The translations under genes were made by a program, and so were the position numbers. Source: Tethya wilhelma (taxonomy: Eukaryota > Porifera > Demospongiae > Tethyida > Tethyidae). From it: a DNA stretch of 64,000 nt. Location of the stretch: positions 16,614,749 through 16,678,748 of the forward strand of contig CAXIPT010000002.1 of NCBI GenBank assembly GCA_964030475.1, written 5' to 3'. Of the stretch, positions 6,989-36,590 are shown piece after piece. Within the stretch, counting starts at the first letter, position 1; each line of letters opens with the position of its first letter. A model generated the notes under the pieces. The model searched no databases, was not told the origin of the DNA, and saw only the letters and a list, made by a program, of their open reading frames with translations.

Positions 6989-6989
6989 N

Positions 6990-9690
6990 CCTCATTTTGA
7001 CAGGCTGCTGACTTACTGACTGGAAGCTCAAGCCTTATGGTCAATGTTTCACTGTGTTTATATTATCGCTCAGCTATACTGTAATTTATGTGCAAGAAAA
7101 GCACTGGATCATTGCACTGAGGGTTAAACAGCTGCCACCAATTAAAACTTACATAATATTTTGTATGTGAATAAGGGGGAAAGTGTGATGAGATTATATG
7201 TGTGAGTACGAGTGTGTATCCATAGATAATATATTATCTATGGTGTATTACTATGTTGGAGGGGCAGTACTTTTCCAGTATCCCTCTAGATCTCGTTGGT
7301 GTAGAAATTGCTTTTGCTGACTTAGCATGACAGGTGCATCTGACTAAATTTATTAGCAAACAAAACTGATACTCATGTATCGTATACCTCCTCTGCATGG
7401 GTCATAGTACATGCTGGGCAATTTCCAATTAAGTGAATAGTCAAAAAGGAACCATAGGATGATCAATGTATCTAATACTATATATTAAGGTGGAATAATT
7501 ATTATGCCAAAAAAAATGAGTTCAATTATTGTGACATAAATTATTTGAATATTACGTCTCTAATGGCCAAGCCATATTAGTACCAAAACTGGTAATTGCT
7601 CACTATACATTTTAATTCACTATACATTTTAGTGGAAGGCCGTTTCTGGTCATGAATGCAAAATGTGTTAGTGTAATTATAATAAAAGGGTATAATGGGA
7701 TAATACGAATTGTTACTGCAGTTGCTGCTCTATAACTACATAATTTCTACTCAGTCAAATTGCATGCAGAGAGTCTGACAATACGTAGATAGAGTTGCTC
7801 ACAGTATATAAGACAGCTACAAATGGCCAAAGAAAATATACTGTTGTTTATTCCCAATGTAATAGGTAAGACTATGGCACATTGTAAGTCAGGATACAAA
7901 TACATGCAACTTCACTTCTGTATATACGTATACAAATGGTTATACTACTATTTTGTCATACATATAGGGAGCAATATTAGTGAACATAAAAAAAAAGGAT
8001 CAGGTCAGAGAGCGGTGGTTCTAGAGATTTAAAGAAGCTACTAGCTCATTCTACCATTCCCAAGCTAAACTGAGCTGGCACAGAGTGTATTCGAATGTTT
8101 TCTAGCAACGAAGGAGGTTAGGAGTTCAGGAGTCGAAGTTGCAATACTATACAACTGATTCAAGATGTACTGAATTTGTCTTGGCAAATTAAGGTTTGTT
8201 ACTAAGCATGAACCCTTGTTGATAAGGCTCTCAGAAAGCTCTATATATAGTAACGAGCCGAAATGTAGCCATGATAAAAATGTATGTAATACTTATATCA
8301 CCTCAGCCCTCGGGCGCTGCATGCCCTCAAGATTCGATGCAATAAATGTCATATACATTCCTCGTGCCGTGATATAACCTATTACATACAGTATACTAGT
8401 CACGTTATGTAGAAACAGAATGCATGTGCCATGTGTGTAGATGTATGCTGCCTGTGTAATTTATTTTACATAATGATGACCTTTACCGGTAACAAATGGT
8501 GGCTACACTTGAAGTGAAGACAGTAGTACATAGGAATGGCCATAGATACATACAACACAAAATATTTCACCCTAAAAAACTATATAGTCAAGGAGCCTTT
8601 TGATGTAATATTTTTGATGGGACTGTGTGTCCTCTACCCCAAGTACATGATACTCTTTCAGCTGATTGTCTACTTTGATATATCAAAAGCATGGATCCGA
8701 AAGCATAGGTAATTAATTAAAATGGAGATCAATCCTCACATGCAACATGCACTAGTTCAGACAGATGATGCACAGAATTTTTTCATATTTTTTTTTAATA
8801 ACAGTTCAGCATAAGCATTACACTAAATTTAAATGTACACCCAAATATAATTGTAATATTAGCACGTATTATGCACGGGGTCAAATGGTTACGGCAATAA
8901 TATTATTCCCCATAATGTGCATGCATGCTATAGAAAAGACTCAAAATTAATTTTGTAGGCGAATACAGCAAAACCTCCAAACAAAGGACGCTTTGGAGAC
9001 AATATAAATTCGGCTTGTTTGACCTTTGTAGAGAGGTTGTCCTCTTCTTGGATGTTCTGTTTATATTGCTACAATAGGGAATTGGAATTTTTGGGAATAA
9101 AGAATTGTCCTTTGTTGAGACATCTAGCTGGGTTCATGTCAATGTGTCACAGTTTTGTGCAGCTCTACACTCCTAGGCCATAAGAGTCATAAGGATACAA
9201 GCAATAAGGTTCTGAAATTTTAAATTACTACAGTGATGTGAGTTTGATCATAGATTATATTAGTTTCACAGGCTTTTCAGCATAACTTTGCAGCCTGAGT
9301 TATACATTATATGTATAATGATTACAAGCAATCAAACAACATTCTATAGTTTGGACTCTATCTCCTCAGTTATGGAGCAGAACTATTCTTTGTGGCATTG
9401 TATCTTCTCTATTTCTCTAATGGACCATCACATATGCAGAAGTTTCTACAAACAAACTAATTATCTTATTTTAAAATACAAATTTCAGTATCTGTGATGG
9501 GCTCTGAAGTAGGACTGTGGCAGGCTACAGCAGCAGTAACATTTCCGTTGGCTTGTACTAATCTACTAATCAGCCTGTTGATCTTACAAAATGCCATTAT
9601 TGGTATCGACATTGCTAGGAGAGCTGCAGAGAAGTAACCATATAATAGTGTTAATATACAGCTAATATATAGCCCAGCTATAGGACTGGT
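6990..9690 (+). repeat. left arm of a 2.7-kb inverted duplication (CDIPT locus)
   Basis: This stretch is the near-identical reverse complement of 14363-17071. The homology starts exactly at the N at 6989 and on the other side ends exactly at the N at 14362. Arms differ by scattered single-base changes and small indels at a level like two alleles. The likeliest explanation is that two haplotype contigs of one locus were placed in the scaffold in opposite orientation. A true inverted duplication cannot be excluded. Confidence 0.85.
7823..9637 (+). pseudogene. CDIPT: phosphatidylinositol synthase (CDIPT), incomplete copy on left arm
   Basis: CDIPT joins CDP-diacylglycerol and myo-inositol in the ER. 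Recognisable exons: 7823-7865 (MAKENILLFIPNVIG, the family N-terminus, chosen as start because it matches that of the human protein), 8588-8708 (FLMGLCVLYPKYMILFQL...KAWIRKHR, membrane segment after the active site), about 9350-9430 (YGAELFFVALYLLYFSNGP), and last exon 9489-9637 ending in TAA (final membrane segment and ARRAAEK tail). I could not find the exon with the CDP-alcohol phosphotransferase motif (DG-x2-AR...G-x3-D-x3-D) or the following linker exon between 7866 and 9349, and the exon at 9350 has no obvious GT donor. As assembled it cannot encode an active enzyme. It may be a true pseudogene, or the missing exons may be lost in assembly. Confidence 0.7.
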
Positions 9691-14362: not shown

Positions 14363-17071
14363 ACCAGTCCTATAGCTGGGCTATAATATTATTAGCTGTA
14401 TATTAACATTATTATGGTTATACTTCTCTGCAGCTCTCCTAGCAATGTCGATACCAATAATGGCATTTTGTAAGATCGACAGGCTGATTAGTAGATTAGT
14501 ACAAGCCAACGGAAATGTTACTGCTGCTGTAGCCTGCCACAGTCCTACTTCAGAGCCCATCGCAGATATTGAAATTTGTATTTTAAAATAAGATAATTAG
14601 TTTGTTTGTAGAAACTTCTGCATAATTATGTGATGGTCCATTAGAGAAGTAGAGAAGATACAATGCCACAAAGAATAGTTCTGCTCCATAACTGAGGAGA
14701 TAGAGTCCAAACTATAGAATGTTGTTTGATTGCTTGTAATCATTATACATATAATGTATAACTCAGGCTGCAAAGTTATGCTGAAAAGCCTGTGAAACTA
14801 ATATAATCTATGATCAAACTCACATCACTGTAGTAATTTAAAATTTCAGAACCTTATTGCTTGTATCCTTATGACTCTTATGGCCTAGGAGTGTAGAGCT
14901 GCACAAAACTGTGACACATTGACATGAACCCAGCTAGATGTCTCAACAAAGGACAATTCTTTATTCCCAAAAATTCCAATTCCCTATTGTAGCAATATAA
15001 ACAGAACATCCAAGAAGAGGACAACCTCTCTACAAAGGTCAAACAAGCCGAATTTATATTGTCTCCAAAGTGTCCTTTGTTTGGAGGTTTTGCTGTATTC
15101 GCCTACAAAATTAATTTTGAGTCTTTTCTATAGCATGCATGCACATTATGGGGAATAATATTATTGCCGTAACCATTTGACCCCGTGCATAATACGTGCT
15201 AATATTACAATTATATTTGGGTGTACATTTAAATTTAGTGTAATGCTTATGCTGAACTGTTATTAAAAAAAAATATGAAAAAATTCTGTGCATCATCTGT
15301 CTGAACTAGTGCATGTTGCATGTGAGGATTGATCTCCATTTTAATTAATTACCTATGCTTTCGGATCCATGCTTTTGATATATCAAAGTAGACAATCAGC
15401 TGAAAGAGTATCATGTACTTGGGGTAGAGGACACACAGTCCCATCAAAAATATTACATCAAAAGGCTCCTTGACTATATAGTTTTTTAGGGTGAAATATT
15501 TTGTGTTGTATGTATCTATGGCCATTCCTATGTACTACTGTCTTCACTTCAAGTGTAGCCACCATTTGTTACCGGTAAAGGTCATCATTATGTAAAATAA
15601 ATTACACAGGCAGCATACATCTACACACATGGCACATGCATTCTGTTTCTACATAACGTGACTAGTATACTGTATGTAATAGGTTATATCACGGCACGAG
15701 GAATGTATATGACATTTATTGCATCGAATCTTGAGGGCATGCAGCGCCCGAGGGCTGAGGTGATATAAGTATTACATACATTTTTATCATGGCTACATTT
15801 CGGCTCGTTACTATATATAGAGCTTTCTGAGAGCCTTATCAACAAGGGTTCATGCTTAGTAACAAACCTTAATTTGCCAAGACAAATTCAGTACATCTTG
15901 AATCAGTTGTATAGTATTGCAACTTCGACTCCTGAACTCCTAACCTCCTTCGTTGCTAGAAAACATTCGAATACACTCTGTGCCAGCTCAGTTTAGCTTG
16001 GGAATGGTAGAATGAGCTAGTAGCTTCTTTAAATCTCTAGAACCACCGCTCTCTGACCTGATCCTTTTTTTTTATGTTCACTAATATTGCTCCCTATATG
16101 TATGACAAAATAGTAGTATAACCATTTGTATACGTATATACAGAAGTGAAGTTGCATGTATTTGTATCCTGACTTACAATGTGCCATAGTCTTACCTATT
16201 ACATTGGGAATAAACAACAGTATATTTTCTTTGGCCATTTGTAGCTGTCTTATATACTGTGAGCAACTCTATCTACGTATTGTCAGACTCTCTGCATGCA
16301 ATTTGACTGAGTAGAAATTATGTAGTTATAGAGCAGCAACTGCAGTAACAATTCGTATTATCCCATTATACCCTTTTATTATAATTACACTAACACATTT
16401 TGCATTCATGACCAGAAACGGCCTTCCACTAAAATGTATAGTGAATTAAAATGTATAGTGAGCAATTACCAGTTTTGGTACTAATATGGCTTGGCCATTA
16501 GAGACGTAATATTCAAATAATTTATGTCACAATAATTGAACTCATTTTTTTTGGCATAATAATTATTCCACCTTAATATATAGTATTAGATACATTGATC
16601 ATCCTATGGTTCCTTTTTGACTATTCACTTAATTGGAAATTGCCCAGCATGTACTATGACCCATGCAGAGGAGGTATACGATACATGAGTATCAGTTTTG
16701 TTTGCTAATAAATTTAGTCAGATGCACCTGTCATGCTAAGTCAGCAAAAGCAATTTCTACACCAACGAGATCTAGAGGGATACTGGAAAAGTACTGCCCC
16801 TCCAACATAGTAATACACCATAGATAATATATTATCTATGGATACACACTCGTACTCACACATATAATCTCATCACACTTTCCCCCTTATTCACATACAA
16901 AATATTATGTAAGTTTTAATTGGTGGCAGCTGTTTAACCCTCAGTGCAATGATCCAGTGCTTTTCTTGCACATAAATTACAGTATAGCTGAGCGATAATA
17001 TAAACACAGTGAAACATTGACCATAAGGCTTGAGCTTCCAGTCAGTAAGTCAGCAGCCTGTCAAAATGAGG
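14363..17071 (-). repeat. right arm of the inverted CDIPT duplication
   Basis: Reverse complement of 6990-9690. On its right side it runs without a break into the 3' flank of the PH-BTK/WD40/ZU5 gene. This copy therefore probably has the true chromosomal context. Confidence 0.85.
14381..16238 (-). pseudogene. CDIPT: phosphatidylinositol synthase (CDIPT), incomplete copy on right arm
   Basis: Same exons as the left copy on the opposite strand: start exon MAKENILLFIPNVIG at 16238-16196, a middle membrane exon near 15353-15473, and a last exon containing VGLWQATAAVTFPLA and IDIARRAAEK. Compared with the left copy, two extra bases after GAGAAG remove the TAA and extend the frame 14 codons to a TAG at 14381. 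A 4-bp indel lies just after the FSNGPSH codons. The catalytic exon is missing here too, so both alleles or copies lack it, which argues against chance loss in one contig. It may be the neighbour of the large gene at 17.5-28 kb in tail-to-head order on the same strand. Confidence 0.65.
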
Positions 17072-17476
17072 TTAATTCTTGTGGTTTTGTACAGTGTGTA
17101 TAGCAGCGTGCAGTCATGTGACAGAATTTTACACTGAGCTAAAGCATCATGATTGTTGAAACAAAGAGTGTACACTCTTGTTGAAACACATCTCCACTTC
17201 TACTTCAAATGTATACACAGCTGCCATCAAGAAACTAACTGACCTAAGCATCCAACAAAAGTCATCATTTTAACATTATTATTTTAGATTTCAATATTAG
17301 ATAAACCACAAAATGTCATGCATTAGCTATAGAGCTTTGGTTACACTAACTGTGATCAGCAAGCAAAAAAACAAAACAGCTATACATGAATACAACATAG
17401 AATACTAGCTTTATTACAATTCTTAAACATTTTAAAATACACGGGCAGTGCTGTAAAGAAATAATATCTCTTTGTA
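17072..17476. other. intergenic; poly(A) signal of the PH-BTK/WD40/ZU5 gene
   Basis: No gene. AATAAA on the minus strand at 17415-17410 lies 62 nt beyond the second possible stop (17477) of the upstream gene and fits its 3' end. Confidence 0.5.
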
Positions 17477-17785
17477 TTAGACTAGTGCCTTTAGAACAGT
17501 ACCTTTCTCAATCCTCCTTGCTATGCCCGACTGATCGATAATCTTTAATGCTTTGCAAAGACTTGTCCATGTTGGAGTCCCACTTTTTTCTATAACATCA
17601 TCGATCGGCTTGCTTTAGCCAAGAGTCAATCATATCATCTGGAAGAGTCTTCATCCTTTTCAAGTTTGATCGAAACAAACCTAGGGCCTGACCAAGAAGA
17701 ATAATTTCTCGTTCGTCTAAATCTTTGATGTAACCATGAATATCAATGTGCTCCCTTTCTGTTAGAGCTGTATATTTAGCATATG

Positions 17786-17853
<68 letters not shown>

Positions 17854-18692
17854 GGAACTTAATTTAATTCTCACCTGACTCTAGGTCAGTACTTGGACTA
17901 GCAACATTACCTCTTGTAGATACTGTAAACAACAATAATTATACTTTTGTCAACAATTAGTTATCAATATAATTATAACAAGTCTGAAGTATACGTGACT
18001 CATACAGTTTCATCATAATGTTCAGGCTCTACCTGGTGGTAAGATTAACTCAGTGTTAAGTTTATTTTCTGCAGATCCAGTGACATAAACTAGTATGCTG
18101 CATTCTTTATGTCCACTCTTCATTCGAACTGTCATTGTAACTCGTGGTGGGTACAATAAAGTTAGATGATCTAGTTTCAGTATAGATGGATCAATCTTCA
18201 AAAAGTCAACTTCAGACATTTTAATCTGAGAGTAGAGATGTATACTATGCATAACATTACTTAATTTGTGTGTTAATAACCATTAATAATTACTATTTTG
18301 AAAGGATTCTAGGACACTCAACCTTACTACAGAATTCAAAATCAATACTAGCACAATTTTGCACACACCCAAATGTATACGGGTATAGTCCTGGTACAGT
18401 ATTAGTTTTCTGTCTAAATAGTTCATAGTTAATATCTTGCCAGATATTGGGTGTAGTTTTGCAATAAGTCGGCTGTCATGACTCAAATGAGAAATATCAA
18501 TCTTCAAATGCTGATCTTCACAATCTTAATTCAAATTGAAAACGGTCATGACAACTAGCCAGGTAGTTATGAAGCCGTGCTTGCATTTTAAGTGCCTATG
18601 AATTATTGTATTATATAATACCAACACTCCGAGGCTATAATATAATGATGAATTTCATGATACACATGTATGCACCATACAAACAATGTCAT

Positions 18693-18745
<53 letters not shown>

Positions 18746-21700
18746 TTTTACTACTTGTATGATTATACAGTAACTGTTTTAGCTACAGGTAGACATACAC
18801 AATATGGTATGAGTCTATTGTAAAGGACTTGTATATCAATATAATAATTATGGTCTGTTTAAAAAAAGAATTCAAAACTGTACAGTAACTGCCTGTAAAA
18901 CAAATCGCATGATTAACAAAACTATAATAAAAATATAAATGTATACTTATAATTATAATAAAATTACATGACAATAGATCTCTAGCTATACATTAATTAT
19001 TGTCATAATGATGATTGCATGAACACATATAATATAATAATTATTAATATTGCTAGGTCACTGACCCTCCTCTATAGGATTAACTGTTTGAGTCATTTCT
19101 GGAGGGAAAATAATACAATCATACAGTAAGCTACAATGTATTAATTCTGGTTACATGACTTTCAACCAATCAGATATTATGTTAAAAGTGTACAATAAAT
19201 CACGTAAAGCAAAGATAAAGTTCTGGCTATAGCACTCAATAAAAAAAAGAACACTTCAAGAACCATTTCCTGCAATCCATTTGTAGAAGCTGCTTGGTTA
19301 AAAGTTAACGAGATAAATTTTATTCCTGGAAATGGCTGTTTTCAAGAATGATGGGGCAATAATATATAGTCTCAGTTTTACTTCACTATTGGAACTGAGT
19401 CTATAATACCACGTAAATTATGTGTCTGTACCTTCGTTGGACAAATTCTGTGCACCTGGACCATAAGAGACTATAGGAAATGGCATTGGTCCATGAGGCA
19501 ATATGGCTGCTCCATTCATGAGTCCTGCCACTAGACTAGGCTGTTCTTCATCAATCAAACCATTAACTGGGTCAGCATGAATTGTGCATGTCGTGTCGTG
19601 GTGGGAGACCAGGAAACATGAACAGTGAATGAGGTATACACATGAATGCCATAATATAAACAATTATGTACCATACCATGGTCTTCATCTTGTTCAATAG
19701 AAAAACTTTCCTGAGCACTTTTCTGCAATAATGTATAAAGAAACAAGGGTAGCAAACATACAACAAATTACTGCAGATACATGGCTAACATGTTGTAATC
19801 AAGAGATCAGAATTGGCTAATGTTTCAATACACAACATAACTACATGCATACACTCACCATGCTTGCAGTGGACACTGAACCATATGATCTTCGACGTGC
19901 AATTGAAGCACTTCTACTGCAATGACAACTGTTCTTGTATTCCACTACACATATAGGGGAAGTAACAATTAATTGTATACCCATGCAACTACACATTACA
20001 GCCAATCTACAACCAGTTAGCACCAGAATGACCCTATCTACTCATACACTATCCAACAATAATAGGGTACATGCACATGGCATCAGTATTACAATATCAT
20101 CATGTACATACCACTAAGCTTTATCTCTGGAGAAATATCATTCAAAGCTTCACACAGTAAGGTGAAGTGGCCGGGATGATCCTTGAGAGAATCAGAAACA
20201 GCATCCAGAACATCAAGATTTCTGTAGGCACGGTCTTCTTTACGATCCTTTGCTTTATCAAGAATATCTCTCTCAATAACTCTGTAGGAAAAGAGCTTTA
20301 GAGCTAGTCTCAATGGGTCCACCTTTTCTGCAATGTCAGACAACTTGGTTCGCAATGCCTCTCTTGCACATTCAGTATGCACTTGATCACTGGGAGTCAC
20401 TAAAACTGAGTCTCCTGAAGTGATATGCCTCATACCTAGCAAGCATTCATATATAGAATGGGTATTATTATGTGAATTTAATGTTATACCATGCAGTGTC
20501 CACAGTATCATTCTAATACACCTTACCCATGCATAGCTGTGTGTGCCTGCACTTATAGCAGCAGAACTTGAGCCAATTTTGGGAGGTGGCTCAATTAGAG
20601 ATGGCTGCATGCCTTCGCTTAGTTTTTGAGCGGGTTAGTTACCACAACATAATGTATGACAGTTGCATGCCAGTGTATATGTATGAAATTTAGTTCTCTT
20701 TTCTGTCGATTTCTGTTGTGAAAGACTATGCTCAGCTAGGATCCGAATTATTGTTAATATCCTTACTCCTGCATGCATGAGCACATATAGATCAGATCAT
20801 CTACAGCATTTGATGACAGTTATATCCACTTGTGCATTTTCATACTATCTCCAAGTGGTGTTTTGGTGACTCAGACCCTATATACCATCAACTTTGGAGT
20901 TGAAAAAGAACCATCCCACACTGTTACCGACTGTCATCACTGTGATCACAATAAAAATACTGTTGAAATTTCAGGCATAAAATTTATATAACAATGTGCT
21001 ATGTTCCCGAGACTGATGGTAAAGCTAGGGTCTCCAAAGTCTGCCTGCATGGTTAGGGCTTGTTAGAATCTCAGGCTCTTCCACGTAGTCTTACGCAACA
21101 GAATTGGTAAAAAATATTTATATAGAAGTAAGCTTTAATCATACACTGGCAACTGTCATACATTATGTTGTGGGAACTACAGCCCGCTCAAAAAAGATAA
21201 GTGAAGGCAGCCATCTCTGATTTGAGCCACCTCCCACATTGGCTCAATTTTGTGCAGTCAATTAAGCACTTACGAGGTTGGTGTTCACAATTCAGAGAAA
21301 CAGTGAACTGACATTCAGCTCTTCCTTGAATCATCATAGACCCAGGAAACATCACCAGAGTTTGAATATCTTTTGTAGCTCTACGACCATTGATCATGAC
21401 AGTAAACCGAGGTGGGTATGTCTTGTTTGCACACATGAAGACTAGCTCTTTACAAGATGGTATATCCCAAAAACAAACATCTTTACGATAGATCTATAAA
21501 ATAAACAGACATGCTTATACAATGTCATTCTAAATTGACATGTGCTATATATATATGCATGCTTTAATTAACCTAAAAACACAAAAAAAATCACAATATC
21601 AATGCATCAATTTAATTATCAACCTTGTTTATTCCATCTTTTAGCATGAACTTCCATCCATGGCCAGTATCCAAGTTCTCCTGAAATTTGATGTGAATTG

Positions 21701-24700
21701 CTGGATCACTGCTATCACTATCATCTGAAAACCTGACTGCTCTCATGGTTAATTTGAAATCTGAATCAGGATATTGCTCCTCAATTGTCTGTACGAGGAA
21801 AAGTAAATGATTTCAAGTACATTATGGTCACATTGTTTTCAGAGAGAATGATATAATTATACCTTGATACAAGTGGGGAGGTAATAGGGAAGACAGTACT
21901 CAATAGTCAACTCTGATTGAGAGAGTTGGCTGTTTGGTATTGCCTCAACAAGGCAGAACTTCGCCTTGTTTGTGTCTTCTTTGAAGTACTCTCCTACACA
22001 ATAACAACAGCAATGCTTGACAGAGATCTTGACAAACTGAATGCGAGTCTTGCGATCTGTTAATAGAGTCAACTCTGCATCTTCAACTTTACTCATCTTG
22101 TAAATACCCTCTTCCCCAGTTGCTGAATCAATAATGCAGGCTTTGAAGATGGCTAATCGTTGACAGTCTTCTTCATTTTCACAATCGATGTAGATAGGCA
22201 TTATCAACTCTATTGGCTTGTTGAATTCCACTTCAGGCATTGGAGTGATGGAGAGGATGGCTGAAACCGGACGGACATGTGCATCATCTTCAAACTTGAA
22301 AAGACTAAAATTTAATGGTCCATGTCGAAGTACACCATACTTAAGTCTTGTGCTGCAGCTGGTATCTTGTGGAATAGCTCCCTTTGGTACTGACAATGTA
22401 ATGGCATCATCTTTCAACACACAGGTCACACTTGATTCACTATCTACTGTCAGAGTTCCAGTTCTGATAAGTTTTAATTTGATGCCTCTACTGGACTTGC
22501 AGGGGACTGTAAACGAATAAAAAAATTTACATCATACACCAACACATTGAAATAGAGGGAAAATAAACTGTCAAACTCCTTTGTTACTTACTTTTCCACA
22601 TAATTAAAGCACCATCATTATATCCAACTCCAAGTGTTTGACAATCCTTTGAGTATGTCAATGATGTCACTGCAGTAACAGGTGTCTGGAAAACAACCCA
22701 TATCACACTAAAGTGATGGTTATGTTAAAGAATCAATGCAGCTTTAAATCTTTTAACAACTGTATATTATAGCAAAATTGTAGGTGTGTATGCATGTGAT
22801 TCAATAGATTTTGATTCCAATTAGGAGTCACGGTACAGAGTACTTAAAACTTTGTCAAAATAGAAGCATTGAAGTGTCCAAATAATTCTATATATAGGTG
22901 TGTCCAAAATTGCAATTAAAAAGTGGGGTGGCATACGCTAATGTTAGCCTCGTACCCAGGCCACTTCCTTTTTAATGTCTACTAGAATTTTTCTTGCTGT
23001 AAATCATAATGCTTTTTAGTCACATGACATTGTATGCATAAGTGAACAGTCAAAGGTGAGAGCTATGCAGGCCAGTTATAACAAAATGGCAGATCAGCTA
23101 GGGCACATGGCAATGACCATATATAGTTCATTTTAGGCCATGCATGGTACATCATGCAGTATAGTGAGGTTCAATGAACACAGAGGAAATCGGAGGTACT
23201 GGTACAATATACATGAGTGACATTATAGGAACCAACTGTCACATGCAAATGTCAAGATAGGTATTGCTCAAAACATGCAATGGTAATAGCATAATTCTAT
23301 AAGTGGTTATTTCAAATTAGCATAAAATTTTACCTAAATTAGCTACATATTGTGACCCAGTCCTTAATGCTCCCAAGCAAAAAACACTATAAATTTATGG
23401 CATGAGGTATAGCCTGACTATAATTCCTTGTACAAGATAGGCCTGTTTTCTGAAAATTTTGAGTCACTGTGTTAGTTTAATGCACATGTATATAATTGGG
23501 GGTCTTTTTCTTATACCTTGAACATAGGGAGGGTAAATTGTTTAGAAGTTGATGATGTCAGAGGTTCACCAAAGATCTTGACTTGTCCAGAGCTCAAACC
23601 GACAGAGAGGTAACTGCTAGTTGGTGAGTAACTAAGACTTGTAACAATGCCATCTGTTAGTACGATAACATTGCAAGTTTTATTCATGCATGCCAGCAAA
23701 TTTAATTATCATGGGTAGGTATTACCTGGAAATGGATAGCTGAAAACAAGTTCTTGACTTTTGGGCCTGAAAACTCTGAAATGATTTCCACAGCCAACTG
23801 CAAGCTGCCTATATACAGCATATTCCTTAGTATAATAACTATAATTATTATTACTGTATAGCGGGAAAATTTTGCGGTGCGTGACTTTCGCGGATGTCTC
23901 TATTCAAACATTTTTGCGTTTTAATTTGCTAATGAGCTGTACCAGCCCATGCATATTATACATTACAGAGAATTTTGTGGAAAACTTTTACAGCTGGATT
24001 GTGATCTACAAAACCAAAAAAGAGTTAAACCTCGCGAAACTTTCTTGCAATACAGTACGATATAGTATATAAAATTAATGTATACCTCTGGAAAATCACA
24101 TTTGTAAACTGAATTATATTTGCATTTGGTATATGGAAGCAAATGAACTGTATCACCAATGATTATACCTTCCATCATGTGAAAATGATGTATGAACATC
24201 TGCTACATGTTGACTCCTTGCTTGACTTTCATGACTACTGGTATCAAGCTGCTGCTCCCACACTTGCTGATTTTGGTCACAGTCAAAAATGTAAACACGA
24301 GGACTACTATCACTGTCAGTAGCTCTCAGGCCAACAGCAAGCCAAGGTTCGTTGCGATTTGAAGATACAGAGAGACTGTTAATAAAATTAAAAGGATGCT
24401 CAAGTGCAACATTCTGAATCACTAGTATTATAACTTTAGCATGCATTTGAGAACACTCTGGTCTATAGTATCTATTAGGAACTCACTAGCTGGATACGTT
24501 AACAACCACCAACCTGGATATCATGTGTGCTATGCTATTGATGCATAGTTGTGCCTTTGGTTTGATTTCATCAACCACATCATCACTTGACTCAGAACAC
24601 AATGAATGCACAGGAGGCCACACATTAATGACAGGACTATCATAGGCAGCTGACACAAGAGAGCCATCTGGTCTAAACGCACAGTAATGAGGCTTGCCAC

Positions 24701-27700
24701 CATTCTGTACACAAAACAAGAATTAATGCATGAGCTCTGACCCTGCATCATGTCAAGAATCAGTAACAGACTCTATTAGTATATATAGTAGTGCATTGTT
24801 CTACCACAAGTGTCTTCGCCCAAGTCCACTCAGTTGTGTCAATAAGCTGTAATTTAGGAGAGCCCAGGGCTAAATACTTCCTCCAAGTATCAATGGATCC
24901 TATAGACTTCACAGTCTTGTACACATTGCCATCTTCTTCAGGGTTAGACACATTGGCAGTAGCTATGTTGACACAGTTCTATAAGGAATGATATGTATGG
25001 TGATCAAAACTGCTCCATAAAAATTAATCAACCATTTAGGTTAAATAAACTGTTTCAAAATAGCATTGTTAGACATACATGTCTAAGTTTGAGTTATGAC
25101 ACAATTAATGGACTATAATCAATGTGTTTACACTATATCATAATGATAAACAGTAAACATGAGACAGTATAATTATTTTATGAGTGTGCCTGATCCAGAT
25201 AATTATACCAAATAGCGGGTAAATTTGGCGGGCTTAAAATTTGGCGAATTCCCATTTTAGGATTATTGGCGATTTTTAATTTGGTGATTCAATTCCGCAC
25301 GCTGCATAGTTTATATGGGCGCACATGCGTATTAAACTATTTGGCGATTTTTAATTTGGTGATTTGAAGAATAATTCGCCAATTCACCAAATTTACCCGC
25401 TATACGGTATAATTATGGAACTTGCCTTTTCATCCATGTAAGCTGTCACCAACATCTCTGCATTTCGGAACACTGCTTTAACTATTGAAGTAGATTTGTC
25501 CATCTGAATACTTCGCAGTAGTGTCCAGTTCTGCACATTAATACAAGATTACAATTATGTGAAATGATATATATATACACAGATACATGAAAATGATCAG
25601 GAATTGCATATCTATAACTTACTCCAGTACTTGGCTCAGAAATTATGCTATTCAGACTCAATTCTGAGTTTGATTCAATGCCCTTCTGAATGTGAAAATA
25701 GAGCCAAACTCAAACATTGTCTATATAGCTGGAGTCATCACGTATATTTCAAAAATGTTTACCTGCTTCCTTTGAAGTCTCTTTCGATAAGTATGAGGAG
25801 AAAGACCTGAGAGTTGCACAATCTTAAAGTATACAGTGACTGTCACAGTGGTGTATATATATATACTTCAACAGAATAATTGGAATCTGACCTTCACCAA
25901 CTCCAAGTGATGTGGTGCTTTCATAACGTCCTAAGCCACTATCTAAAAGTTTTTTTGAAGTATAAATTATTATAGATTAACAATTATAGCTTGGGTAGTA
26001 CATAACTCCTTTTACCAACACTCTTGACTGATTGTGCATCATATCTGTACATTCTTCCCAGCTGTTTTCCATGGGGATCAAGTTCAGTAGGAGACTCAGC
26101 AGTTCTATAATATAGTGAGCATCATAATAGCCATTGTTGCACCAATAATATTCATATGTGCATGCTTGCACAATTTAGGTTTTGCATACGCAAGAACTAT
26201 ATATAGTATAATTATATCAACTTACTGTGAATAGTCTTCTTCAACTAATGTGCTATGAAACTGACTACTTTCTAGGTCTTTTTTGTCTTGGTAAAAATAT
26301 CTTGCAGGTACTGACTGACTATGAAACTCATTCGATTTGGATCTTGACCTTTTAGAAAGTATTTCTTGATCATGATTAGATATTCCAGAGGTGGTAGTGC
26401 TGGCTCTCTCACGATGAGCATGTCTTGCACGTTTTTGACAACCTGGAGATTCTCGTTTTGTTGCTCCACAACAACTCCATTTACTTTGATCTACTTGGCC
26501 ATATGCTCCAGTGTGGTAGTGTGATAGCATGGTGTTTGAATTCAGGCTTGCCGCTATCAGTATTGGAAATTAGTATAATATTATTGATATAACCATACAC
26601 TGTCAGGATAGATATAACACATGAAGAGGCATAGGGTTGCAAATGAAGATAAAGGAGGGGGGGCATGGGACCTTGGTCCCTTATAAGAAAATCGCATGCA
26701 CTCTGAGATCAATTCTGGGCATTTTGTTATTAATAGTACTGATTTGACTTCAACTGGCTGCAATAACAGTACTCATAAAGATGTATACAGTGTAGTTGGC
26801 TGCATATACCTATTCTGAATGCCTCAATCCAAGCATCTCTTTCCTTTTCAGATTTTGCACTAAAATACATTACTTCCCTTTCATTTCCAATCTGGAATAA
26901 AGGCAGAGTATTGCTTATAATATATATTTTTATAGTATAATAAAAATTATTGTTCTGTTTTAATACTTGCTATAAAGTATTGACTAATAAGGCTTACCTG
27001 AAAACAAAAGTACTTTCCAAATGTGACGTCAGGAACCTTCTCCACAATTGTTATTTCTTTAACTGAATACTGACCTCTATTCTTTCCATCCTGCATGGTT
27101 AGAAGAGAACAATATGCATATAAAACTAATAAACTTGGGCCAACTATAATTATGCATGCATGCCTTAACCTTTGGTACCTAGCTACCATGCATGCATTAT
27201 AAAATTTCCCGCTAACAAGCAATTAAGAGCTGCCATCAACATCACGTATATAAGTGTAGACATACCAAGACATTCGATACCGTAGGCCTAGTACTATATA
27301 CTAAAAACTTTTATGCAGTTTGATGCAAGTGTATGGTGTGGCACTGAATCAGATATGGTAGTTTGGATAGCAAATGATTAATGCAGATACATGGCATGCA
27401 TGTGCACGGGTGTCCACCATTAAAGAAAAACATGAGAGCCAAACAGTGTGAGCTTCACATTAAAGTTTAGGTAAATTGTTTCTTGGGCCATCTTAGACTA
27501 GGAGTCTACAAATGCGCGTGCACACATGCAGTAAGTCAAAAAATAACATGCAATAGCTAGTTTTGAATGTATATTTCACTAAAAGGTTATCCCACACCCA
27601 CTCCCAATCGATCATTGATATCAGACAGCTATTAACAGTCATTTTGGTTATTTCCTCACTTGTGTAGTCTGGCAAAGGCTCTCGAGCCGAAACGTCTCTC

Positions 27701-28036
27701 AAGTTCATTGACTACAATAGATTGAATCATGCGAGGATGGGTGGCAGGCTTAAGTAAACAACAGCTAGGCCCCCAAGATATTATGTAAACAGGCCGCTAT
27801 AAGAGTGACACTGCTAGGGAGTTCATTGCTGAATCACTGATTTCAAAGCGCATTGCACACAATGCAGTAACTAAAGTCTGACTCACCCTCCCAGAACGAT
27901 ATTCCAATTTTGACTGAGACAATTGGATAAACCTTTGCTGAAACTTCAACTTTCTTAAGTCAGTGTTCATACTCTGGCCTCTCTGTCTCTTGAGAAGGAA
28001 ACCTTCCCTTAGTATGGATTTTTTTCCGGTTGCCAT
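17477..28036 (-). CDS. PH-BTK / WD40 / ZU5 / death-fold multidomain signalling protein
   Basis: Twenty-seven frame-consistent exons: 28036-27887, 27090-26998, 26891-26810, 26553-26226, 26104-26016, 25942-25892, 25806-25763, 25685-25623, 25530-25426, 24978-24805, 24704-24514, 24375-24169, 23808-23726, 23653-23517, 22685-22592, 22506-21863, 21788-21624, 21493-21274, 20435-20112, 19944-19859, 19722-19677, 19566-19432, 19098-19066, 18390-18323, 18225-18033, 17922-17875, 17767 to the stop. About 1,340 residues. Order: Tec-type PH domain (1-108); BTK zinc motif H-x13-CC-x9-C (about 120-150); basic linker; WD40-like blades (about 300-632); ZU5 (LSVPKGAIPQDTS, 633-850) and a further beta region (to 975); CARD/death-like helical domain (about 1000-1080); Ser-rich linker; second YPPR-containing beta module (1185-1272); C-terminal Death domain. 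The last frame ends at TGA 17598 in mid-Death domain; matching sequence continues in another frame to TAA 17477, so one indel is suspected. The start ATG was chosen because the MAT-x-KKS start is shared by the duplicate at 36.3 kb. Function is inferred only: lipid-recruited scaffold for death or innate immune signalling. Confidence 0.8.
17780..17851. repeat. (TG)n microsatellite
   Basis: About 70 bp of TG repeats in the last intron of the large gene. A second array, (CA)n at 18692-18742, lies in the intron 18391-19065. Confidence 0.9.
23857..24075. repeat. possible MITE related to the TAGCGGGTAAA family
   Basis: Starts TATAGCGGGAAAATTTTGCG and ends in CTCGCGAAACTTTCTTGCAA, weakly inverted to each other. 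It sits in the intron 23809-24168. It resembles the TAGCGGG-starting elements at 25213 and 55168, but its ends are diverged. Confidence 0.4.
25213..25402. mobile_element. 190-bp MITE with TAGCGGGTAAATTTGGCG ends
   Basis: Terminal inverted repeats TAGCGGGTAAATTTGGCG / CACCAAATTTACCCGCTA and inner inverted GGCGATTTTTAATTTGGTGA. It lies in the intron 24979-25425, its right end 23 bp from the exon. A second member in opposite orientation is at 55168-55373. Probably a non-autonomous DNA transposon; the flanking TA may belong to the target duplication. Confidence 0.8.
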
Positions 28037-34639: not shown

Positions 34640-36590
34640 TACCTAGCTACTACACATGCATTATAAAATTTCCCACTAACAACTCAAGAGATGACATCAT
34701 ATCACGTACACTGGTAGTGTTCTTGCATAATTATGTAGACATACCAAGACATATGACACTATATAGTACTATGTTAACTGATATAATAAAAAAAATCATG
34801 CACTTTGATGCACAAGTATGCATGGTCTGGCACTGATGGTATACGTAGTTTGGATAATAAATGATTAATGCAGATGCATGTGCACTATATAGTGTCGGCC
34901 ATTAAAAACAGAACCAAACAGTGTGAACTTCATGTTAAAATTAATTCAGCTTAGCTATAGATTGTTTTTTACACACATGGACACATATAATACTAGGGTA
35001 TACACATGGTACAAATCCTCACTCAGCGTGCACGCCTTTATCTTTTGTTTCCAAGTATTTAGAACAAAGACAAGGGTCGACTCGTCAATTTCGAAAATGC
35101 AATTCAGCTCATTTTGGGCTTGCGTCCAGCAAGCCAGCTGTAGAAGCAGAAATCTAACTTATAAAGCAAACTCAAAGCCGGAGTTTTACATCCATAGCAA
35201 GTCTATACTACCAGTTATTTACAGCAAAATTGAAGTAAAGAGAAGTTAGAATTCAGTCTTGGGTCGTCAATTTTGAAAACTAAAATCAGGTGATTCGTGC
35301 CGGCGTCCAGAAAACCAGCTAGAAGCAGAATTTTTATTCATACAGAGAACATAGGTAAGTGAGCACATGAAGTTATATCGCCTGAACTTAAAGCTACGTA
35401 TTTTTCAGACATTATATCACCACTTTTGGGTATTTAGAATAGCTATATATTGAAAAAACTCTCTGTTGCTGTCAAGCGCATGCAGCTGGGATATATTGAG
35501 CCCCTCCTGAAGACCAATAATTGAGTTTTATACAAAAATGTGAAGCGCATACTATTGCAATACATATTCAGAGAGCATTTATGAATATCATTATAGCTTG
35601 TGTGGTCTGTGTAGATGATGTAACTAATAATGGTTACTACATGCAGCACCCTTAAATTTTACTATAAAAAACTGTCAAAACTGTAAAACTACTAAATCTT
35701 ATGTCAAAAAGTAGTCATATGCTGTTTTTAGAACTTCAATAAGACTTGAAGTTTAGCCTAACCTTTTTCACTACCTTAGTCAGTGCAGTCAGTCCACAAA
35801 TATGAGCCACGCCCTTCAACTCTCACGTGATCAGACCCGCCCACTTGCTGAAGCTCCACAAGCTATAAATAGTGCTCACTCATATCCACAATAATTCTTC
35901 TTTAGCACTATGGGTTTGGCAATGAACACAAATTTAAAAATTTACTCTTTTAGCTTGGAGCACTGTAGCCTATAAATGAAGGCTCTCGAGCTGCAATCTC
36001 TCAAGTTTACTGCTACAATAATAATATTATGTCAATTCACTCAATCATGCGAGGGTGATGGCAGGCTAAAGTAAACAACAGGCCCAAGATTATGTTAACT
36101 GGCTATAAGAGTGACACTGCCAGTTCATTTCTCCATGGTGAATCACTGATTTGTATCGCACACCATGCGGTATAAAGTCTGACATACCTTCAGATATTTT
36201 AATTCTGACTGAGATAATTGGATAAGCCTTTGCTGAAACTTCAACTTTTTCAAGTCGGTGTTCATTTTCCGGCCTCTCTGTCTCTTGAGAAGGAAACCTT
36301 CTCTTAGCATGGATTTTTTTGCGGTTGCCATATCACCGTCGGACCCGGAGTTGGCTGCCTGTGCGGGCCCTGGCAATGTTGCCCAATGATCAGGGTTACT
36401 ACAGTCAAGTTCAGATCTGAAGTTCTGCACAGCTGAGATTCACGTTGAAGCGTCTGTCTTTCACAGTTAATTTTAAGTAGACCGTCTCAAACTCTGTCTC
36501 CCTGAGCTTGAGCCAGCCTGGTATGTTCTGAATCTGCAAGTTGAGCACATCCTGCAATGACGTCATCCACATTAGCCAATCATCATGCTA
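34640..36590 (-). repeat. diverged partial copy of the 5' end of the PH-BTK/WD40/ZU5 gene
   Basis: Co-linear in the same orientation with 27170-28260: shared landmarks are ACCTAGCTAC...CATTATAAAATTTCCC (34640 and 27177), GGCTCTCGAG (35981 and 27676), AATCATGCGAGG and GGCAGGCT-x-AAGTAAACAACA. The copy is about 800 bp longer, partly from a local duplication (35075-35170 with 35262-35340). The homology stops at the N at 34639, just before where exon 2 would be. Divergence is well above that between the CDIPT arms, so this is a paralogue and not an allele. Confidence 0.75.
36188..36331 (-). pseudogene. duplicated first PH-domain exon
   Basis: Open 48-codon exon from ATG 36331 to donor GTATGT, reading MATAKKSMLREGFLLKRQRG and then LKKLKFQQRLIQLSQSELKY. 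It is closely similar to exon 1 of the large gene and two codons shorter at its end. The intact frame and splice donor suggest it was or is the start of a paralogous gene. Downstream exons are absent because the contig ends at 34639. It may be functional in the complete genome. Confidence 0.65.

Follow-up and report, generated by a model that had tools for sequence, protein, structure and literature searches.

In CARD8 and NLRP1 the FIIND region cleaves itself at an SF/S motif into ZU5 and UPA, the N-terminal part represses UPA-CARD, and UPA makes CARD filaments form at a lower threshold, as described in passages of PMC3210808 and PMC7794386. Passages of one of these two papers also describe that Ser, Thr or Cys can initiate such cleavage, that the phenylalanine matters and that UNC5b has leucine there. 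Sections of PMC8195603 report 357 TRADD-N proteins from the sponge Amphimedon, up to 50% of them with unique layouts, and sections of PMC12909245 report NACHT-WD40 and NACHT-ZU5 layouts in early-diverging animals. Here we describe a gene of the sponge Tethya wilhelma that is a variant of the ZU5-UPA-death-fold kind and whose new part is a PH-BTK-propeller head. It lies in a stretch of 64,000 nucleotides (the window, C2:16,614,749–16,678,748) of an assembly of 124.6 Mb in 204 contigs, which are designated C2, C7, C8 and so on. The minus-strand PH-BTK/WD40/ZU5 gene running from window position 28,036 to 20,108 is labelled gene A.

Gene A consists of 19 phase-consistent exons, and its domains follow in the order PH, BTK zinc loop, Ser-rich linker, seven WD40 blades, ZU5, UPA-like module and CARD-like domain (Table 1). 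As judged from sequence, there is about an even chance that the locus is a single gene encoding a cytosolic sensor or scaffold that can dock on membranes, with 1,106–1,184 residues and this architecture, that it belongs to a small PH-BTK-propeller family, and that a Death-like tail lying downstream is separate from it.

As in CARD8 and NLRP1, the ZU5, UPA-like and CARD-like parts of gene A stand in series behind a variable part, but here the N-terminus is a PH-BTK unit plus a WD40 propeller, HCC takes the place of SF/S, and the UPA and CARD identities are weak by sequence. With PIDD1 and UNC5 it shares a death-fold-like domain behind a ZU5 and UPA-like module; unlike them, it has no LRR (leucine-rich repeat) or transmembrane part that was found and no HF/S, and its helical domain resembles CARD more closely than it does the local Death-like set (5–6% against a profile whose 11 sequences are little diverse). 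Tec kinases and PH-BTK RasGAPs likewise place a PH domain before a BTK zinc loop, whereas kinase, SH2, SH3 and RasGAP domains were unlisted for gene A at E ≤ 1 in the whole-model Pfam search described below, and its zinc loop is three residues longer than at the other BTK loci fetched (H-x13-CC versus H-x10-CC). Apaf-1-type proteins combine WD40 with CARD, and gene A also joins a WD40 propeller and a CARD-like domain in one chain, but in the reverse order, with ZU5 and UPA-like parts in between and with NB-ARC unlisted at E ≤ 1. The lineage-specific mixing of death-fold domains with WD40, ankyrin, SH2 and ZU5-UPA, described in sections of PMC8195603 for the TRADD-N and Death-like architectures of Amphimedon and marine invertebrates, resembles what is seen here, but TRADD-N was unmatched in the whole-model Pfam search and the term 'PH domain' is absent from the main text of that paper. 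No paper on a PH-BTK plus WD40 plus ZU5 architecture was seen in search listings of the open-licence PMC library, which is not proof of absence.

An earlier note on this DNA had read 27 frame-consistent exons, carrying a PH domain with BTK zinc motif, WD40-like blades, ZU5, a CARD/death-like helical domain, a second beta module and a C-terminal Death domain. Such a chain can be drawn in consistent phase on the minus strand from 28,036 to 17,598 (translation P0001, 1,393 residues), with splice sites picked so as to preserve phase and with GT-AG introns apart from a single GC-AG intron after exon 9. The hidden Markov model (HMM) search that the note had proposed, run with hmmscan on this whole model, listed 21 Pfam families at E ≤ 1: PH (3e-12) and the WD40 family PF00400 (2.6e-7, 31.3 bits versus a cut-off of 27, in one stretch) were over cut-off, BTK (9e-5, 22.7 bits versus 24) was just below, ZU5 (0.014, 16.1 bits versus 21) was below, though just below for exon 16 alone (6.5e-4 and 20.4 bits), and CARD, UPA and Death were all unlisted. 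None of the 8,000 candidates scored in a full-length search with the same model was a homologue at E ≤ 0.001.

The PH-BTK head was compared with those of three relatives, namely paralog B on C2, paralog C on C8 and gene D, the second PH-BTK gene of the window. Gene A matched the Tec PH-BTK structure at 9.5e-10 in a phmmer search of the PDB, and a profile of all four members matched Tec PH-BTK at 1e-18 and BTK at 1.7e-11, with the three-residue insertion visible. The zinc loop is H-x13-CC in all four members and H-x10-CC in 4/4 other BTK loci fetched, a comparison that left out weaker PH or BTK matches such as those on C17 and at C1:18.86 Mb; the final cysteine stands at x9 in A, C and D, while B carries cysteines at both x6 and x9. 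Residues K16, R35 and Y46 are identical in all four and align with BTK K12, R28 and Y39, which are named as residues of the phosphatidylinositol trisphosphate (PIP3) site in a passage of PMC13342989. The PH domain and BTK motif of the earlier note are thus upheld, the sub-threshold BTK score of gene A being backed by that of paralog C (1.2e-7), and its WD40-like blades correspond to a propeller in which seven blades were counted by eye, with single blades matched in paralogs B and C. Between head and propeller, the linker has a codon score of 29.9 bits over 80 codons (0.37 per codon), which lies above the 95% level, though below the 99% level, set by non-coding open stretches of 65 codons, on a codon-usage measure that discriminates weakly (training exons, left out singly, reach 0.09–0.35 bits per codon). 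DSG/ESG-rich linkers were seen by eye at the matching place in paralogs B and C.

The ZU5 domain of the note also stands: the sub-cut-off score of exon 16 is backed by two homologs that score above the cut-off, P0003 (1.7e-7) and P0002 (8.9e-5), with which it shares 43% and 66% identity respectively and the identical HCCCYCVGEY motif. P0002, from a second genome, is an open frame that reads by eye as a last blade, an in-frame intron and ZU5, P0003 covers ZU5 alone, and the search of the sponge's own genome gave no paralog as near to exon 16 as P0002. Scans of prokaryote genomes and viral contigs with the ZU5 unit confirmed no relative. Exons 16–18 align at 28% identity with a ZU5-UPA-like-Death-like gene at C7:5.445 Mb, exon 18 matches a six-sequence UPA2 profile with a probability of 49% (60 shuffles ≤ 1.9%), and gene A, paralog C and the C7 gene all place their ZU5/UPA1/UPA2 exon boundaries in phase 0/0. 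Five loci (on C7, C16, C3, C41 and C12) carry ZU5, UPA2-like and Death-like exons in that order, the C16 ZU5 containing a stop.

Exon 19 had no match in Pfam and nothing below E 0.8 in the PDB, and a protein search with it gave two candidates, none at E ≤ 0.001; an NCBIfam row for SocB (16.3 of 210 bits) was taken as chance, being far below cut-off. Aligned together with one relative elsewhere in the genome (L065, 29% identical), exon 19 reached 63.5% over 39 columns in an hhalign comparison with ten sponge CARDs, 80 column shuffles giving ≤ 2.2% and three other control sequences ≤ 1.5%; L065 alone reached 36.9% over 76 columns. The CARD profile held 10 of the 12 loci fetched, leaving out L051 (the same as L050 over the match) and L058 (on the other strand). 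The search with L065 gave 49 genomic matches at E ≤ 1 and 6 at E ≤ 0.001, L065 itself and exon 19 included, and the helical domain common to the two is unrecognised by Pfam. Several matches of this search sit in open frames of more than 500 residues. We tentatively call exon 19 CARD-like, not a CARD; one death-fold-like domain joined to the PH-BTK head, WD40 and ZU5 is supported, while the CARD/death-like identity given in the earlier note is unconfirmed.

The joining of the PH-BTK head to WD40 and ZU5 is borne out by paralogs C and B and by the passage from last blade to ZU5 in P0002. Paralog C (C8:467–475 kb) has PH, BTK, WD40, ZU5 and UPA-like exons on one strand in the order of gene A, although diverged; with its exons spliced by eye, PH (1.6e-11) and BTK are both over the Pfam cut-off, its propeller matches general WD40 models only (best 2.2e-4, far under that model's cut-off, with PF00400 unlisted), and its ZU5, which has no Pfam ZU5 match, reaches 98.2% (E 4e-14) in a profile comparison with a seven-sequence ZU5 alignment. 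Its second UPA-like exon reaches 70% (60 shuffles ≤ 4.2%). Since single tblastn matches from gene A to the WD40 and ZU5 parts are weak (E 0.002–0.003 in a 9.9-kb search, and unlisted at E 0.05 in a larger set), the case for paralog C rests on order and profiles. Paralog B (C2:14.938–14.946 Mb; loci L063/L064, 14,937,965–14,946,000 on the plus strand) has PH-BTK (PH 2e-10), ankyrin (3.6e-48), WD40 (PF00400 4.3e-6, 27.5 bits versus 27) and, by eye, a coiled coil, with no ZU5 matched. The wider search for the architecture that the note had suggested therefore gave a mixed outcome: the PH-BTK-WD40-ZU5 order was found twice in this genome, in gene A and paralog C, and the PH-BTK-propeller head three times, while the second genome gave the WD40-ZU5 part alone.

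By analogy with the described systems, a mechanism can be proposed that, like the earlier note's lipid-recruited scaffold feeding a death-fold complex, is an inference, and in which the PH domain, with Tec-type lipid-contact residues kept, is predicted to dock on phosphoinositide, and the propeller would bind a partner or signal. ZU5-UPA would hold the CARD-like domain silent, as in CARD8, NLRP1, PIDD or UNC5, until a signal from the propeller or the lipid-docked head frees the UPA-CARD-like part, and the freed units could then assemble a signalling complex. It is also conceivable, albeit improbable, that these genes belong to a hitherto undescribed family of animal sensors resembling inflammasomes, docked on phosphoinositide and headed by a propeller. 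Their ZU5-UPA switch would carry cysteine (HCC in gene A, HFC in paralog C) where PIDD and CARD8 have the serine of self-cleavage, and exon shuffling would have exchanged their C-terminal outputs, which range from none through CARD-like and coiled coil to, perhaps at an earlier time, Death. As a separate observation, the ZU5 of paralog C (L047, about 8879–8910, C8 plus strand) reads H-F-C at the position of PIDD HF/S, a possible cysteine self-cleavage variant.

Downstream of gene A lies DNA copied from another gene. When window positions 17,000–20,000 were compared by blastn with 16.4 kb of C7, one main alignment (944/1,278 columns identical, 74%) ran from 18,743, at a TG repeat, to 17,482 through introns and exons alike, the other alignments shown being the repeat. 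The C7 source gene has its ZU5 exon just upstream of the copied 3' end, and the window copy begins after that exon and so has none. Relative to C7, a 4-base insertion breaks the first UPA-like exon of the copy, the C7 donor is gone, and a second 4-base insertion terminates the Death-like domain at ...WLKQADR-stop, a position past which 5/5 paralog exons read, as do 10/11 of a wider set including those five (L033 departs). Pfam Death scores among five Death-like paralogs scanned are 0.011, 0.021 and 0.054, all under cut-off, with no match in the other two, and 'Death' is a weak name for this set. On sequence comparison, we consider the tail to be a piece of another ZU5 gene that stands apart from gene A and broke recently.

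Several of our results weigh against the reading of gene A as a death-fold sensor or scaffold. Exon 19 alone reached 12.0% against the sponge CARDs (80 shuffles ≤ 2.5%), and true CARDs, left out singly, scored 95.7–99.8%, far above it. There is no Pfam UPA match in gene A or the C7 gene, and 'UPA' is for this reason a name given by position. The HF/S or SF/S self-cleavage site is replaced by HCC in gene A; the presumed position is HCC in 7/7 aligned ZU5 sequences and HFC in paralog C, its equivalence with HF/S or SF/S being putative, and cleavage may be absent within gene A. The BTK scores of paralog B (0.099) and gene D (0.042) are both under the Pfam cut-off. Paralog C seemingly ends after its UPA-like module with no death-fold domain (sequence to C8:475,180), which indicates that a CARD output is not a family trait. 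Finally, over the five coding pieces of the tail (201 codons), non-synonymous (dN) and synonymous (dS) divergence from C7 are 0.109 and 0.466, a ratio of 0.23, and two introns are 56–58% identical. A copy dead from the outset would generally be expected to show a ratio nearer 0.5–0.6. The observed ratio points to a tail under selection for most of its life and then recently broken, or to lesions that are assembly errors; the tail would have been constrained after duplication and so have served some gene, possibly gene A, and given its missing ZU5 exon it may formerly have been the 3' exons of gene A.

A less likely alternative is that gene A encodes a non-immune adaptor with no part in death-fold signalling, whose ZU5 module and helical domain would act in scaffolding for the membrane skeleton or for trafficking, in the manner of ankyrin, ZO-1 or SH3BP4/MACC1. 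ZO-1 is indeed the best PDB match of the ZU5 profile (7.9e-4), the helical domain is not a Pfam CARD, and the apparent lack of a helical domain in paralog C would fit as well. Like MACC1, SH3BP4 has ZU5. Sections of PMC11585957 describe MACC1 as having ZU5 and two Death domains, and describe it and its relative SH3BP4 in metastasis and endocytosis. Against this, exons 16–18 share the layout of the five ZU5-UPA-like-Death-like loci in the genome, and exon 19 scores higher against CARD than do its shuffles or the three other controls.

We regard it as very improbable that the present allele encodes one 27-exon protein that continues into another UPA-like module and ends in a Death domain. The in-phase chain, the tail pieces conserved on either side of each insertion and the positive coding scores of exons 26 and 27 (7.2 and 14.0 bits) would agree with it; the copy, lacking its own ZU5 exon, was probably expressed with something; and an adjacent inverted repeat leaves an assembly error possible. 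This repeat is perfect (100%) and 2,445 nucleotides long (6,990–9,434 and 14,627–17,071, with 5.2 kb between arms), ends 0.4 kb from the tail, has one arm edge adjoining a single N at 6,989, and is either a recent inverted duplication or an assembly artefact. On the other side, the tail reproduces, introns and all, the DNA of the 3' end of a different gene; exon 24 as drawn uses a substitute acceptor after the 4-base insertion, with the family donor gone, and scores −11.6 bits (exon 25 scores 1.7); and the stop after the second insertion cuts the Death-like exon. The weakest junctions of the chain are 19 to 20 and 23 to 24, the former requiring the poor donor AT/GTACAT where G/GTATGT would be better. 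The 27 exons of the earlier note can thus be drawn, but exons 24–27 belong to a separate lesioned copy; its second beta module is the second UPA-like module inside that copy, its C-terminal Death domain is cut by a stop there, and the extension to 17,477 is reached only across a frame change within the Death-like exon. Two death-fold domains are consequently unsupported for the present allele.

The least probable reading that we weighed is that of two adjacent genes, PH-BTK (exons 1–4) and WD40-ZU5-UPA-CARD-like (exons 5 or 9 to 19), for which a stop met directly at the exon 4 donor on read-through, in-frame ATGs in exons 5 and 9 that make a separate start possible, and the presence in the window of gene D (PH-BTK with no WD40 matched) and a lone exon 1 copy could be cited; the linker exons score as coding and paralogs B and C carry WD40 downstream of PH-BTK on the same strand, which makes separate genes unlikely. 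A chance stitching of the whole chain was rejected, as paralog C repeats the domain order.

Within the single-gene reading, three ends are possible for gene A: a read-through of exon 19 (1,106 residues), exon 20 taken in a different frame (about 1,119) and exons 20–22 (1,184). With low confidence we favour the last, which is followed on the minus strand by AATAAA at 19,324–19,319, a hexamer that occurs three times in 4 kb.

Table 1. Coordinates of gene A and of other features in the window
Feature	Position	Strand	Basis
Exons 1–4: start codon, PH domain, BTK zinc loop (H-x13-CC-x9-C)	26226..28036	-	Exons 28036-27887, 27090-26998, 26891-26810, 26553-26226; Pfam
Exons 5–8: Ser-rich linker (DSGLG...)	25623..26104	-	Consistent phase, codon score
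Exons 9–15: seven-bladed WD40 propeller	22592..25530	-	PF00400; blades counted by eye
Exon 16: ZU5 with HCCCYCVGEY motif	21863..22506	-	Pfam ZU5; homologs P0002, P0003
Exons 17–18: UPA-like module (DVCFW...TYPPR)	21274..21788	-	Alignment with matching exons of C7 gene; named by position after ZU5
Inverted-repeat insertion within intron 18, like a miniature inverted-repeat transposable element (MITE)	20565..21250	.	Inverted arms 44 nt at 73%, 31 nt at 97%
Exon 19: CARD-like helical domain	20108..20435	-	hhalign to sponge CARDs
Possible C-terminal tail, exons 20–22, stop at 19,418	19418..19916	-	19916-19859, 19722-19677, 19566-19418; low confidence
5'-truncated lesioned copy of UPA-like/Death-like 3' end of a ZU5 gene, outside intact gene	17482..18743	-	C7 DNA identity
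Duplicate of exon 1 with flanks	36194..36331	-	83% protein identity over 46 residues; DNA 73% over 649 columns
Gene D, second PH-BTK gene of the window, same long zinc loop	59272..60052	-	PH 2.7e-14, BTK 0.042 under cut-off

A duplicate of the 5' end of gene A, covering exon 1 and its flanks as well as some of intron 1, lies upstream at 35979–36568 and 34640–34942 with 71–73% DNA identity; it may serve as an alternative first exon or be dead. In paralog C, PH exons 1 and 2 are tandemly duplicated (L047 2488–4600, C8:467–470 kb, plus strand), and a RhoGEF-like stretch was seen by eye just upstream. An open frame upstream of exon 19 was rejected as coding, as it overlaps the inverted-repeat insertion of intron 18. 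Near gene D no WD40 or ZU5 was matched, and a frame resembling a long interspersed nuclear element (LINE) was seen by eye at 58.2–58.5 kb. Rfam gave nothing at gathering score on the window, and a sigma-70/terminator scan of it is uninformative for an animal gene.

Genome-wide, at least 150 Death matches were listed at E ≤ 1 (from the 150 scored out of 591 candidates), every one over cut-off; ZU5 gave 49 within that E limit, of which all but one passed the cut-off, and CARD gave 27 at E ≤ 0.001, numbers that fit an animal rich in death-fold genes. The 3' fragment beside gene A illustrates how an architecture can be overstated when a copy of another gene lies next door, and also how such genes may come to swap domains. 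If the sensor or scaffold reading of gene A is true, a ZU5-UPA-death-fold switch would be coupled in an animal lineage to a Tec-type lipid-docking head and a propeller, and would provide a membrane-localised route into death-fold signalling outside the NOD-like receptors (NLRs).

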